From positions 1-64,000 of the forward strand of contig JARLGV010000034.1 in assembly GCA_031292555.1 (NCBI GenBank): DNA of 64,000 nucleotides. The letters run 5' to 3'. Positions 51,954 through 57,295 of the stretch are shown here, piece after piece. The first letter of the stretch is position 1. Every line of letters begins with the position of its first letter. The translations under genes were made by a program, and so were the position numbers. The DNA is from Fimbriimonas sp. (GTDB lineage Bacteria > Armatimonadota > Fimbriimonadia > Fimbriimonadales > Fimbriimonadaceae). The notes beneath the pieces are model-generated. The model searched no databases. It had not been told where the DNA came from and saw nothing but the letters and a program-made list of their open reading frames with translations.

Positions 51954-52622
51954 ATGAGTGGCAAGCACCCGACATGGTACGCGTTTATCCGCTGGTTGGT
52001 GAAGACGGCTTACTTCAAAACCCATGGTGGCATACGCTCGGTCGGGGCGGAGAACATGCCGTCTCAAGGGGGAGTCATCGTCGCCCCCCTTCACATAAGC
52101 CACCTCGATCCTCCCGCCGTTGCATGCGGGACCAGGAGACGCCTGCGGTTCATGGCAAAAGAAGAGCTGTTCCACCACAAGCTGTTCGGCGCCCTGATCA
52201 CATCGTTGGGCTCCTTCCCTGTACGAAGGGGAGAGACCGACACCGAGTCGATCCGCAGGGCAATCGCGTTGTTGGAAGAAGGCGAGGCCGTGTTGATTTT
52301 CCCAGAAGGCACGCGAGGCGACGGCGAGACGATTCAAGAACTGAACCGTGGCGTGGCGATGCTAGCTAAGCGAACAAATGTGCCGGTCGTTCCCGTCGGC
52401 ATTATCGGTACCAACGTCGTCATGCCTCGGGGCAAGACAAAACGTGGGCGGCACTTGGTCACCCTGGCGTACGGCCGTCCGTTCACCTATGCTCAACTGG
52501 CAGTTGGCAAGTCCGAGCGGGAAAACCGTGACATCTTTGCCGCCGAGCTTCAGAAACGCATTGTGGACCTTTGCGCCGAGAACGGGCTTAAGCTTAGAAT
52601 CGCGAACTCAGGCTTAGACTGA
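51954..52622 (+). CDS. plsC: 1-acyl-sn-glycerol-3-phosphate acyltransferase
   Basis: PlsC-type acyltransferase that makes phosphatidic acid at the inner membrane. The acyltransferase boxes are clear: the His-x4-Asp box is APLHISHLDPP (H47, D52), block II FPVRRGETDTESIRRA, and block III IFPEGTRGDGETI (E118). Length (222) is normal. The start lies 10 nt from that of the divergent MFS gene. The 3' end overlaps the convergent hypothetical gene by 29 nt. Confidence 0.93.
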   Translation: MSGKHPTWYAFIRWLVKTAYFKTHGGIRSVGAENMPSQGGVIVAPLHISHLDPPAVACGTRRRLRFMAKEELFHHKLFGALITSLGSFPVRRGETDTESIRRAIALLEEGEAVLIFPEGTRGDGETIQELNRGVAMLAKRTNVPVVPVGIIGTNVVMPRGKTKRGRHLVTLAYGRPFTYAQLAVGKSERENRDIFAAELQKRIVDLCAENGLKLRIANSGLD

Positions 52623-53202
52623 TCACGGGCTGGGTACCTCGTTCCACGTAGCGAAAGATCACATTCTGAGCCGGGCGAAGTTCTATGCCTGCGCTAATCC
52701 GGTAGCCGCTATGTTCGGCAACCAGGAAGACTTCGCGGCTGAATGGGAGTTCAAAACCGACGAACGGCGAGGCGAGGCGGCCGAACTGAATGCCCACGGT
52801 AATATCGGACTTGACGCTCTCATTGATCGCCTGCAAGGGCTCCCGAAAGGTCGTTACCGCGTAGAATCTCCTGCCTTCGTCGGTCCGATCTTGTGCGTCC
52901 TGAACACCAAAGCTGATGCCGGGCGAAACGCCGGGGATAGCGGCGATGAAGTCGTAAGCGAAATCAAATGTGCCGATCTGCCGCTCTCCTTGCTCCTGAA
53001 CTCCCCGCAAATCCAATTCAAAGGACTTGCCGACGCCGATCCCAAGATATTGCTCGAATGCGCCCTTCGAATAGGGCTCCGCACGAAACTCGTATCGGTA
53101 GTCGTCGTAGGCGATTTTACGGGCGGTGGGAATGTCGATCAAACGGTCGGCACAAGCTAAAGAGCCCAGTGCCGTAAAGAGAACCACTACAGGTGCGCGC
53201 AC
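52594..53202 (-). CDS. Putative outer-membrane beta-barrel protein
   Basis: A signal peptide (VVVLFTALGSLACA) precedes about 180 residues of alternating beta-strand pattern (FELDLRGVQEQ, VGIQFGRLASPFVGFELPF, SGYRISAGIELRP), ending in Phe (SLSLSSRF), the usual C-terminal signal of outer-membrane barrels. It may be an eight-stranded barrel. It follows the RtcA-like gene by 61 nt and may be the last gene of that operon. Start is GTG. Confidence 0.65.
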   Translation of the reverse strand: MRAPVVVLFTALGSLACADRLIDIPTARKIAYDDYRYEFRAEPYSKGAFEQYLGIGVGKSFELDLRGVQEQGERQIGTFDFAYDFIAAIPGVSPGISFGVQDAQDRTDEGRRFYAVTTFREPLQAINESVKSDITVGIQFGRLASPFVGFELPFSREVFLVAEHSGYRISAGIELRPAQNVIFRYVERGTQPVISLSLSSRF

Positions 53203-53263: not shown

Positions 53264-54328
53264 CTAGCTCCGTTCGATCCTAACGGTTCCGGGACCGTTT
53301 TCCGTGCCGCGCACGGTTAGGTGGATTGGAGTGAATTGCTTGATAACCCACACGATTGTGAGGAACCGCTGGGTGAGCCTGGATACGGTGAACGTCGAGG
53401 GCGATTCTGCCAATACCAGTGGCAGGAGGACCTGATCGGCAAGGTACGGATCAGTTGTTGCGGCTCCCGACATCCAGTCAAAAAGCTCTTCGAAGGCAAG
53501 CTGAGCCAAAGTTTCTCCGCGGATGCCTCGGGCGCCCATTGCAGTGCCTCCGCCGATTCCGCGCTGGTACTGTGCCCATGTCGTCACGAATGCCCCCGGC
53601 CCACGAGCCTCCACTTCGACATGGCGGGCTACCATGGGCAAGCCGGTGTTTTGAGCGAGAGTCCGTAGGTGAGCGACGATGCGTTCACCTACGCTACTCG
53701 GTATGGAACTGGTGGCGACCACTGCGCTTACCGACTCCAAGGATCCTCGATCCGTCCATTCGATACCTTTCAGGGCGCTTGGCTCAACATCGATTGACAG
53801 TAAGCCGCGAGATTCCCGTCCAAATCCGGCTGTCACCATTCGAGGAAATGCGTACAGTCCGATCTTTCTGAATGCTGCCAGGGTCACATTAGTGAAGTAG
53901 TCGTAACTGATTGCGTTGTTCCCATAGGTCTCGCCATCGACGTTAAGGCTTGAGTAAACGCCGCTACGAGCCAAAGGAGGCAACAGGGAGCCGAGAACGA
54001 CGAGGGCGTTGGCTCCCCGATTCATTTCGTTACGAAGGGAAAGGATGTCGCCTTGATAGCCGGATGGCCGTGCCGTAGGGAGGAATGTCAAGACATCGGA
54101 TCCGACTTCGGCGCCAACGGTCTCCGCCCGGCACACAACTGCAAGGGCCCTCAGAAGGGTTAGGTCTTCGACATCCAGTCCAGGAAACTTCGATGCCCCG
54201 CGAACATTCTGAATTCGAACACCCTGTTGGGTCAGAGTCGACATGACAAGGCACGTGCGCACCAACGCCCCTGCGCCTTCTCCGTGGTTTCCATCGATTA
54301 CGAGAACTGCCTGAGATTCGCCCCGCAT
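53264..54328 (-). CDS. rtcA: RNA 3'-terminal phosphate cyclase homologue lacking the catalytic histidine
   Basis: A full-length RtcA/Rcl1 fold protein (354 residues). Family blocks are visible: IDGNHGEGAGALVRT near the N-terminus, GSDVLTFLP, YGNNAISYDYFTN, TAGFGRESRG and YLADQVLLPLVL. In RtcA a His near the C-terminus (CHLLTN in the E. coli enzyme, recalled, not aligned by software) takes the AMP. Here the same place reads TFTVSRLTQRFLT, with Arg (R321) instead. It may act as a non-catalytic RNA-binding protein like eukaryotic Rcl1. Its start overlaps the preceding stop as TAATG, so translation is coupled. Confidence 0.85.
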   Translation of the reverse strand: MRGESQAVLVIDGNHGEGAGALVRTCLVMSTLTQQGVRIQNVRGASKFPGLDVEDLTLLRALAVVCRAETVGAEVGSDVLTFLPTARPSGYQGDILSLRNEMNRGANALVVLGSLLPPLARSGVYSSLNVDGETYGNNAISYDYFTNVTLAAFRKIGLYAFPRMVTAGFGRESRGLLSIDVEPSALKGIEWTDRGSLESVSAVVATSSIPSSVGERIVAHLRTLAQNTGLPMVARHVEVEARGPGAFVTTWAQYQRGIGGGTAMGARGIRGETLAQLAFEELFDWMSGAATTDPYLADQVLLPLVLAESPSTFTVSRLTQRFLTIVWVIKQFTPIHLTVRGTENGPGTVRIERS

Positions 54329-55386
54329 TAGATCTTGATCTTGAAGCAGGCGAACTCAATGACCTTCATCGCGTATGTCAGGCCGATAACCATAAAGACG
54401 CCCAGCATCGACTCAACGAAGAACTCCGGTGGTTTGAAGTTCCCGGAATGTCCCAATGTCGCACCGTGTACGACGACGTTGATCTTCTCGCACAATGCGG
54501 TGACCGCCTCCACCAACGGACCATGGAGTCCCACCCAAACTCCGACGAAGGTGAGCACCGTGGCCGGCATCATAATCTTGTACTTATGCTTCTGATGCTC
54601 ATTGTAAATGATACAGCTGTAGCATCTCTCTTTCTTTTGAGCCTCAGTGAGCTTGTGATTGTGCGGTATGTAGTTCGCCGCCAAAAGTTCGTCCTTGGGG
54701 ATCGGCTTGTTTTCCATGGCCCCACGGATTACTTGCTCCTCGCACATGCAGCCGACGAGTTCCTTCCAACACGTCCGCCTGGACAGATAGATCGGGCACC
54801 GTTCGCGAACGAATTTCCTGCAGAAAGGCAATTGCCAGCACTTGCCAAGCAAAACGTTTTGCCGTTCGGCTTCTTCCTTGATTCCCTTCCCGTACTTGAG
54901 TTGATCCGCTTTGGCGCCGGTCTTCATCCGTTGCTGGATACGAATCGCCACGTCGGCGATGACCACCAAGAGTCCAATGACGCCGATCGTCGTGCCACCC
55001 AACTGTAGTGCGCTATACGCTTCTTTTGTGGCATCCGTTTGTTTGTCGCCAATGATGGATGGGAGGTAAAGGGGGGCGAAATAGAGAGCGGCGGCTCCCA
55101 TGATCTGGATCGCGCCAAGCAGTTCCGCTCCCCAGAATAGATAGCTCGATCCAATTCCGACGCCGACCAAGCCCACAACCAGCATCTTTTGGAAAATGCC
55201 GACGTTTCGGACAGCGTCTGCCATTTGACCGACGTTTGAGGTGTCGCTACCTATTGCGACGCACGTGTAGACGAGAAGACCCGTCGAGATGAGGACGACA
55301 AGTGCCCCCAAGTAGAAGATGGCTCTCGCACATAGGCCCAAGAACTCTTCTAGCGTCTCTGACAGGTCTCTGCCGCCTAAACTCAT
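54328..55386 (-). CDS. Multi-spanning membrane protein with an eight-cysteine domain
   Basis: About five to six transmembrane segments: 20-44, 63-85, 86-108, 128-150, 270-290 and 325-347. Between the fourth and fifth lies a soluble loop with eight Cys: C183, C189, C197, C206, C213, C215 and C255, C258 (GKCWQLPFCRKF, ERCPIY, RRTCWKEL, VGCMCEEQ, ERCYSCIIY). The spacing suggests two metal sites, either iron-sulfur or zinc. No known family comes to mind. The gene starts 4 nt after efp and overlaps the RtcA-like gene by 1 nt, so the three are tightly co-expressed. Confidence 0.75.
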   Translation of the reverse strand: MSLGGRDLSETLEEFLGLCARAIFYLGALVVLISTGLLVYTCVAIGSDTSNVGQMADAVRNVGIFQKMLVVGLVGVGIGSSYLFWGAELLGAIQIMGAAALYFAPLYLPSIIGDKQTDATKEAYSALQLGGTTIGVIGLLVVIADVAIRIQQRMKTGAKADQLKYGKGIKEEAERQNVLLGKCWQLPFCRKFVRERCPIYLSRRTCWKELVGCMCEEQVIRGAMENKPIPKDELLAANYIPHNHKLTEAQKKERCYSCIIYNEHQKHKYKIMMPATVLTFVGVWVGLHGPLVEAVTALCEKINVVVHGATLGHSGNFKPPEFFVESMLGVFMVIGLTYAMKVIEFACFKIKI

Positions 55387-55390
55387 GGTT

Positions 55391-55960
55391 CTATTTCTTG
55401 ACGCGTTCTAGGTACGTGTCGGTGCGAGTGTCGACCTTAATGATATCGCCAACATTGAGGTGGAACGGCACATTGACGGTTGCGCCGGTTTCTAGTTTCG
55501 CCGGTTTTGTGCTTCCACCGCTTACCGTGTCCCCTTTGAAGCCAGGATCTGTCTCGGCAATCTCCAATTCTACAAAGTTCGGCAACTCGTAGCCCAGGAT
55601 CTCTCCGTTGGCCGACAAGGCGACGATCTCCATATCCTCTTTCAGATACTTGCCTTGAGGCCCAAGGGATTCCTCACCAATCGGAATCTGCTCATATGTG
55701 TCCAAATCCATCAAGACCATTTCGGCGCCCTGCCGAAACAGGTACTGCATCTTGATCTTTTCGACGAATGCGGGCTCTACACGCTCGCCCGATCGGAAGG
55801 TCTTCTCCAGCATCTGTCCGCTCTTCAGCTTTCGCAGACGAGTTCGAACGAACGCTCCGCCCTTTCCCGGCTTGACATGCTGGAACTCGACGATCGTGTA
55901 CACGTCGCCGTCCAGATAAAAGTGCATTCCGTTTTTAAAATCGCTTGTATCAACCGCCAA
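55391..55960 (-). CDS. efp: Translation elongation factor P
   Basis: EF-P enters the ribosomal E site to relieve stalling at polyproline. The three-domain protein is 189 residues here. I chose the TTG at 55960: AGGAG lies 8 nt upstream and the start MAVDTSDFKNGMHFYLDG matches the family, whereas the open frame further upstream has no match. The domain I loop is VKPGKGGAFVRT with Lys at the modified position (K33), so it belongs to the lysine type. Later blocks FVELEIAETDPGFKGDTVSG and TGATVNVPFHLNVGDII are canonical. No epmA/epmB-type modifying genes are seen nearby. Confidence 0.95.
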   Translation of the reverse strand: MAVDTSDFKNGMHFYLDGDVYTIVEFQHVKPGKGGAFVRTRLRKLKSGQMLEKTFRSGERVEPAFVEKIKMQYLFRQGAEMVLMDLDTYEQIPIGEESLGPQGKYLKEDMEIVALSANGEILGYELPNFVELEIAETDPGFKGDTVSGGSTKPAKLETGATVNVPFHLNVGDIIKVDTRTDTYLERVKK

Positions 55961-56134
55961 TATTGCTGCTCCTAGGGCCGACCGCCCATTCCGAACATTG
56001 TGACATGCCGGTGTTTCGCCACTACGACATAATGTTAACTTGATAAGCGCCCAACTTGTAACTCGCTCGACGATCTTCGCTTGGACGTAGGATTTGTCTG
56101 GCACGTTACCCGTCGCCGTTCGTAGATTAAACAC

Positions 56135-57295
56135 GTGAGTTCTCAAAACCTGCAAACGCTTGGAGGCACTCCGCCTCTGGCGCTGGTAGCTCCAGTCGGC
56201 CATCTAATGAGGCCGACGCTCACGATTGCGCCTGAAGACTCCATCGAGCGATCGCTTCAGGAACTCCAAAGAAATGGCGTGCCTTTGTTGCCGGTTGTCG
56301 AACATGGAAGATTGGTAGGCGTTATCGACGAGCAACGCCTTGTACAAGCGGCTGCCGAATCGATCGACCTACAGGCTTCTTGCCGTTCGATCCTGTCTGA
56401 AGCACAGACGATTCAGCCTTATGCGACGGGGTCGGAAGCCCTACGCCGCTTCGACGACTTTCAGAACCACACTCTTGTGGTCGTAGACGACTTGGGGCAC
56501 GTCATGGGCGTCTTGTGCCCGTCCGACCTTTTCCCCAGAAGGCGAGTGCTGCAGCGCCCCCATATGGTTGGCGGCATGGCGACGCCATTTGGGGTCTACC
56601 TGACAAATGGCAGCCTCAAAGGTGGGGTTGGGCACTGGGCGATCATGGCGACCGGCGCGCTGATGTTCTTGGTTCTAGCGGCGTGCATCGTCGTTACCCA
56701 CCCACTCGTTGGCCTGGTCGACCGGCTTCCGCTACCGGAATACTTGCGCATTGCGCTCGCTCAGATCATTCCCTATGCCGCTTTCATGGTGGGTCTTCGC
56801 CTACTCCCACTGTCCGGAACCCACGGCGCCGAGCACATGGTCGTTCATGCAATGGAACGTGGCGAGGCTCTCACTCCGGAAGTCGTTTCGCGGATGCCTC
56901 GCGTCCATCCCCGCTGCGGGACGAACATCGCGGTCGCGATGTTCATGTTCCTGTCGATCGAACTGATCCCGTGGGGGCCGTCCGAGAGCACCCGGTGGTT
57001 GGTTGCCGCCATTCTTACACTCTTCTCGTGGAGACCGCTTGGATCGCTCGTTCAGCAGTACTTGACGACAAAGAAACCCAATGCGGCCCAGCTACGTAGT
57101 GGCATCAAAGCTGGAAACGAGTTGATTCAGAAGTTCTCGACCGCCCATGCATCAACGGCAAACATTCCCGTTCGCATCTGGAATAGCGGAATGTTGCAGG
57201 TCATCGCGGGAAGTTCGTTGGCGATACTGGCCCTCAAAGGGGTCATGCTGCTCTTTCAACTCGACCTTCCCGGGCTGGACAATTTGGGCTTCTAG
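56135..57295 (+). CDS. CBS-domain/DUF1385 membrane protein fusion
   Basis: Residues 20-140 are a pair of CBS domains (HLMRPTLTIAPEDSIERSLQ, VPLLPVVEHGRLVGVID, TLVVVDDLGHVMGVLCPSD), which often bind adenine nucleotides. Residues 145-386 are DUF1385 (YqhQ-like): GGMATPFGVYLTNGSLKGGV, the signature HGAEHMVVHAME and HPRCGTNIAVAM, and several membrane helices. Start is GTG at 56135, divergent from efp. In Bacillus subtilis yqhQ is also close to efp (remembered order), so the neighbourhood may be conserved, but the CBS fusion is unusual to my knowledge. Confidence 0.82.
   Translation: MSSQNLQTLGGTPPLALVAPVGHLMRPTLTIAPEDSIERSLQELQRNGVPLLPVVEHGRLVGVIDEQRLVQAAAESIDLQASCRSILSEAQTIQPYATGSEALRRFDDFQNHTLVVVDDLGHVMGVLCPSDLFPRRRVLQRPHMVGGMATPFGVYLTNGSLKGGVGHWAIMATGALMFLVLAACIVVTHPLVGLVDRLPLPEYLRIALAQIIPYAAFMVGLRLLPLSGTHGAEHMVVHAMERGEALTPEVVSRMPRVHPRCGTNIAVAMFMFLSIELIPWGPSESTRWLVAAILTLFSWRPLGSLVQQYLTTKKPNAAQLRSGIKAGNELIQKFSTAHASTANIPVRIWNSGMLQVIAGSSLAILALKGVMLLFQLDLPGLDNLGF

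Follow-up and report, generated by a model that had tools for sequence, protein, structure and literature searches.

Armatimonadota RtcA-like proteins with arginine or threonine at the catalytic histidine site: probable pseudo-cyclases with a possible role in translation

Introduction

RtcA, the RNA 3'-terminal phosphate cyclase, performs ATP-dependent healing of RNA ends, and its gene is often linked to that of RtcB. In the E. coli enzyme, the nucleophile is His309, which becomes adenylylated. Rcl1, a eukaryotic cyclase-like factor for 18S rRNA biogenesis, is a known case, from eukaryotes, in which an RNA-end enzyme has been co-opted for ribosome building in a non-enzymatic role. To our knowledge, bacteria have no SSU processome. 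The window analyzed here, a stretch of 64,000 nucleotides of contig JARLGV010000034.1 from Fimbriimonas sp. (assembly GCA_031292555.1), contains an rtcA-like gene whose product was described in a first-pass annotation as an RtcA homologue with Arg at the position of the catalytic His, and was likened to the non-catalytic Rcl1. The question raised by this locus is whether the protein is an RNA-repair cyclase and, if not, what else it may do. No description of a bacterial RtcA without this His was found in the openly accessible literature; an earlier mention is possible.

Identity of the window protein

The features of the locus are summarized in Table 1. The rtcA-like ORF starts with an ATG at position 54328, and Pfam detected RTC (1.6e-44) and RTC_insert (5.2e-13) in its product, in the same order as in RtcA. 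An AlphaFold2 model built from the family alignment reached a pLDDT of 95.8, and its best PDB match was P. horikoshii RtcA (Z 45.5, rmsd 1.6, 339 residues), followed by Rcl1 (Z 34.8, rmsd 3.0, 334 residues). Compared with the RtcA structures 1qmh, 3kgd and 3tut (E. coli) and 4o89 (P. horikoshii), the fold was shared over the full length with Z of 39–45 and 27–29% identity. As modeled, the window protein has an RtcA fold that is intact over its full length.

Table 1. Coordinates of the rtcA-like gene, its key codons and its neighbors in the window
Feature	Position	Strand	Basis
Small downstream ORF, a neighbor kept only in part of the family	52594..53202	-	Locus comparison
RtcA-like gene (probable pseudo-cyclase), 354 aa, RTC + RTC_insert domains	53264..54328	-	Pfam, HMMER alignment, AF2
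R321 codon (CGG), aligned with the adenylylated nucleophile His309 of E. coli RtcA	53366..53368	-	Sequence and alignments
E54-D55 codons, in place of canonical Q51-H52	54164..54169	-	Family alignment
Multi-helix membrane-type protein, 352 aa, 8 invariant Cys; upstream, co-transcription inferred	54328..55386	-	Alignment, gene spacing
efp (elongation factor P) ORF	55391..56203	-	EF-P domains, residues 86-267

In a residue-by-residue HMMER alignment, R321 (SRLTQRFLT) was placed on H309 of E. coli RtcA (HPSCHLLTN) and on the corresponding His of P. horikoshii RtcA (ITNHLKTN), and MAFFT alignments put it at the same position. One deposited E. coli RtcA sequence, 3tut, has Asn there. Thus, both the homology to RtcA, through its domains and fold, and the Arg at the catalytic position were borne out. 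Moreover, no conserved His column was present anywhere in the His-less clade to which the protein belongs (the highest, at E. coli position 12, reached 64%), so that a displaced catalytic His, the finding named beforehand as speaking against this reading, is ruled out. The remark that the window holds no RtcB gene extends to the whole genome (6.46 Mb, 100% complete), in which neither RtcB nor a second RTC gene was found.

Conservation of the substituted site

The His column was occupied by Arg in each of the 77 full-length rows from Fimbriimonadaceae (these represent 76 genomes, as one contig had been entered twice) and by Thr in all eight rows of a sister family (f5, loci L041–L048), whereas the canonical RtcA copies, 54 from Armatimonadota plus those of E. 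coli and P. horikoshii, had His in 56 of 56. Arg or Thr at this site is a family trait, far beyond chance, and a sequencing or strain artefact is ruled out by the 76 genomes with Arg. The gene had relatives in every sampled Fimbriimonadaceae genome (37/37) and in the sister family, and these His-less sequences were monophyletic with a support of 100/100 in a tree of 73 rows. Outside Armatimonadota, the only source searched was a plasmid collection, where the RtcA-like matches were distant (≤31% identity). Both a His-less and a canonical His copy were carried by five genomes (G008, G017, G032, G042 and G050); therefore, the His-less gene is a true paralogue.

The substitution was accompanied by other changes in the active site. 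The clade also lacked the canonical Q18, R43, Q51, H52, Q104 and P131 (E. coli numbering), with the Q51-H52 pair, present in 98–100% of canonical RtcA, mostly replaced by E-D. Among 38 columns that are near-invariant in canonical copies, only 12 were still conserved at ≥90% in the clade, while residues such as E182, K330, P334 and G341 were gained as clade-specific conserved positions. E14, R21 and R40, which are common to RtcA, were kept invariant or nearly so, and D287 was usually kept. The NCBIfam RtcA equivalog model TIGR03399, with its cut-off of 250 bits, was applied to 11 proteins. The window protein scored 202.7 bits and four other clade members also fell below the cut-off (His-less range 186–238 bits), whereas six canonical Armatimonadota copies scored 325–404 bits and all passed, so that the cut-off parted the two groups cleanly among these 11. 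Judged from these residues and scores, the window protein should not be annotated as a catalytic RtcA, and the automatic label of RtcA and RNA repair would mislead for genomes with the His-less copy.

The loss of catalytic residues might be expected in a decaying relic of RtcA. However, the ORF was intact, 18 columns were invariant across the clade, and the gene was kept even in genomes of 1.5 Mb. Moreover, the dN/dS values of close pairs were mostly 0.016–0.165, similar to or below those of canonical copies. The His-less clade is under purifying selection, and this, together with its conservation, refutes a pseudogene and leaves a relic with next to no probability. In the reduced 1.5-Mb Fimbriimonadaceae genomes, G152 and G153, which could be host-associated, the gene was present as a copy of about 346 aa that is diverged and nested within the clade, and these copies appear to have lost E14, R21 and R40 too, the alignment being uncertain there. 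In G152, large leucine-rich-repeat-like ORFs were observed upstream of the strongly diverged gene.

The retention of E14, R21, R40 and, in most cases, D287 makes it possible that the protein binds a nucleotide or a phosphate, or catalyzes another reaction. The protein might still be an RNA-end-modifying enzyme that dispenses with the His nucleophile by direct attack on ATP or by use of another residue, for which the intact fold and the invariant or nearly invariant E14, R21 and R40 would speak. Against such an enzyme stand the lack of any conserved His in the clade, the different residue at the His site in each family (Arg or Thr), the further loss of Q18, R43, Q51, H52, Q104 and P131, and the apparent loss of E14, R21 and R40 in the G152 and G153 copies, uncertain as their alignment is. 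Moreover, we know of no case in which Arg or Thr serves as nucleotidyl carrier in an RtcA fold. A His-independent enzyme is thus improbable, and on this sequence evidence the clade protein is very probably a bacterial pseudo-cyclase that has lost cyclase chemistry.

Gene context

In Fimbriimonadaceae, the rtcA-like gene is the third in a row, after efp and the gene for the eight-Cys membrane protein. In the window, the stop codon of the Cys-rich gene overlaps the rtcA-like ATG by one base (54328), and across the family the gap between these two genes had a median of 3 nt and did not exceed 30 nt at 69 of the 72 loci. As the EF-P domains span only residues 86–267 of the efp ORF, the true efp start lies inside it. 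The small downstream ORF is probably outside the core unit. The Cys-rich protein, whose invariant Cys residues are C183, C189, C197, C206, C213, C215, C255 and C258, occurred in 272 of 291 Armatimonadota genomes. A fold search of the PDB gave no match for it at E ≤ 0.001, and no Pfam or curated family scored above its cut-off. Its gene lay beside efp in 10 of 12 sampled genomes outside the order, and the pair of efp and the Cys-rich gene predates the arrival of the rtcA-like gene. The Cys-rich protein looks like a phylum-wide core protein that is usually encoded beside efp, and it constitutes a second unstudied component.

Other members of the clade were found in different surroundings. In those sister-family loci that extend far enough, the rtcA-like gene is the last in a cluster with genes for a 7TM-HD hydrolase, ybeY, DgkA-PAP2 and corC; this ybeY operon also has lipid and transport genes. 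In G152, it adjoins trpS, located downstream, an adjacency seen in this reduced genome only. Across the clade, the gene occupies three separate translation-linked settings. Unlike canonical rtcA, it is not linked to RtcB: RtcB was present in 29 of the 37 sampled Fimbriimonadaceae genomes and missing from 8, and all 37 had the rtcA-like gene, which is independent of RtcB. Several of the Fimbriimonadaceae RtcB hits matched the Pfam model only weakly or in split segments.

The close spacing of the Cys-rich gene (≤30 nt in 69/72 loci) could also mean that the pseudo-cyclase is a nucleotide or RNA-end sensor or an adaptor for that protein, with no direct role in translation. The retention of E14, R21 and R40 and the membrane-type nature of the partner, with its 8 invariant Cys, would suit such a role. 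However, the two genes are apart from each other in the sister family, and in G152 and G153, which have the rtcA-like gene, no partner was detected; thus, a sensor or adaptor is a possible but rather unlikely explanation. Replacement of Era or YbeY by the rtcA-like gene was considered and rejected, since both are near-universal (Era in 61/61 and YbeY in 60/61 genomes). A function in defence was also rejected, as PADLOC gave no match.

Proposed function

The preferred reading, a pseudo-cyclase that acts in translation or ribosome maturation, is held at a probability of roughly 0.6. Its second part, the involvement in translation or in ribosome maturation, is drawn from gene context and by itself has about an even chance of being right. 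Without His309, the covalent enzyme-AMP should not form, and ATP-dependent cyclization of 3'-phosphates would consequently be lost. The basic pocket formed by R24, R43 and the new R321 (window-protein numbering) might then bind a phosphate or an RNA end without turnover, or alternatively be used as a docking face. Such a protein would probably bind RNA or act as a scaffold during translation or in the maturation of ribosomes, for instance of the small subunit, and in Fimbriimonadaceae it would be made together with EF-P and the phylum-wide Cys-rich membrane protein.

A non-catalytic role of the RtcA fold has precedents in E. coli, where RtcAB has been linked to the stability of rRNA and to ribosome homeostasis (PMC5175333), and in catalytic mutants of RtcA, which retain complex formation with RtcR and RtcB (PMC9650030). 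If the reading is correct, a pseudo-cyclase has been kept in two families, and some of the genomes that encode it have a canonical paralogue as well.

Relation to eukaryotic Rcl1

The comparison with Rcl1 involved the structures 4clq and 3pqv and the NCBIfam model TIGR03400. Rcl1 and the clade have in common an RtcA fold without the nucleophile and the loss of the Q51-H52 pair. Moreover, the fungal proteins (S. cerevisiae and K. lactis) carry Arg in place of the His and have Lys where the clade has K330, and this, together with the full-length structural match (Z 34.8), would fit a bacterial orthologue or sister of Rcl1. However, in human RCL1 the His is replaced by Tyr, unlike the Arg or Thr of the clade, and Rcl1 also lacks E14, which the clade keeps. 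In the tree, Rcl1 was placed among the canonical sequences, across the 100/100 branch from the His-less clade, and forcing the two together was worse by 21 log units (AU p 0.014), a rejection that carries moderate weight because the branches are long. On TIGR03400, the window protein scored 39.5 bits against a cut-off of 228. Thus, orthology is disfavored by the tree and the constraint test and is highly improbable, and the best reading of these sequences is a pseudo-cyclase of separate origin. Since Rcl1 and the clade lie apart in the tree and human RCL1 has Tyr, the His-to-Arg change in yeast Rcl1 and in the bacterial clade is best read as parallel.

The first-pass suggestion of a bacterial Rcl1-like non-catalytic protein is therefore supported in kind, as indicated by the lost nucleophile, the other active-site losses, the conservation in two families and the canonical copy alongside, but not by descent. 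It is conceivable, at slightly less than even odds, that Armatimonadota independently turned a repair cyclase into a ribosome-maturation or translation factor, as in the case of Rcl1 and with the same His-to-Arg change as fungal Rcl1. If so, the same recruitment step would have happened twice, and the bacterial protein would offer a simpler system for asking what a dead cyclase fold does.

The parallel proposed here is with a dead-cyclase fold that binds the GTPase Bms1 and is required for 18S rRNA processing (PMC4914098). Bms1 is a eukaryotic GTPase, whereas the clade gene has no linked GTPase gene. In S. cerevisiae Rcl1, the residue at the His site is R321 by its own numbering, a match in number with the window protein that is coincidental. 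It is R327 of yeast Rcl1 that was reported to bind Bms1 (PMC4914098; correction PMC5062985), and equating it with R321 of the window protein is wrong, as R327 lies six residues past the His site, in the "RDIK" stretch. The clade residue at the position of yeast R327 is W327, while K330 is common to both.
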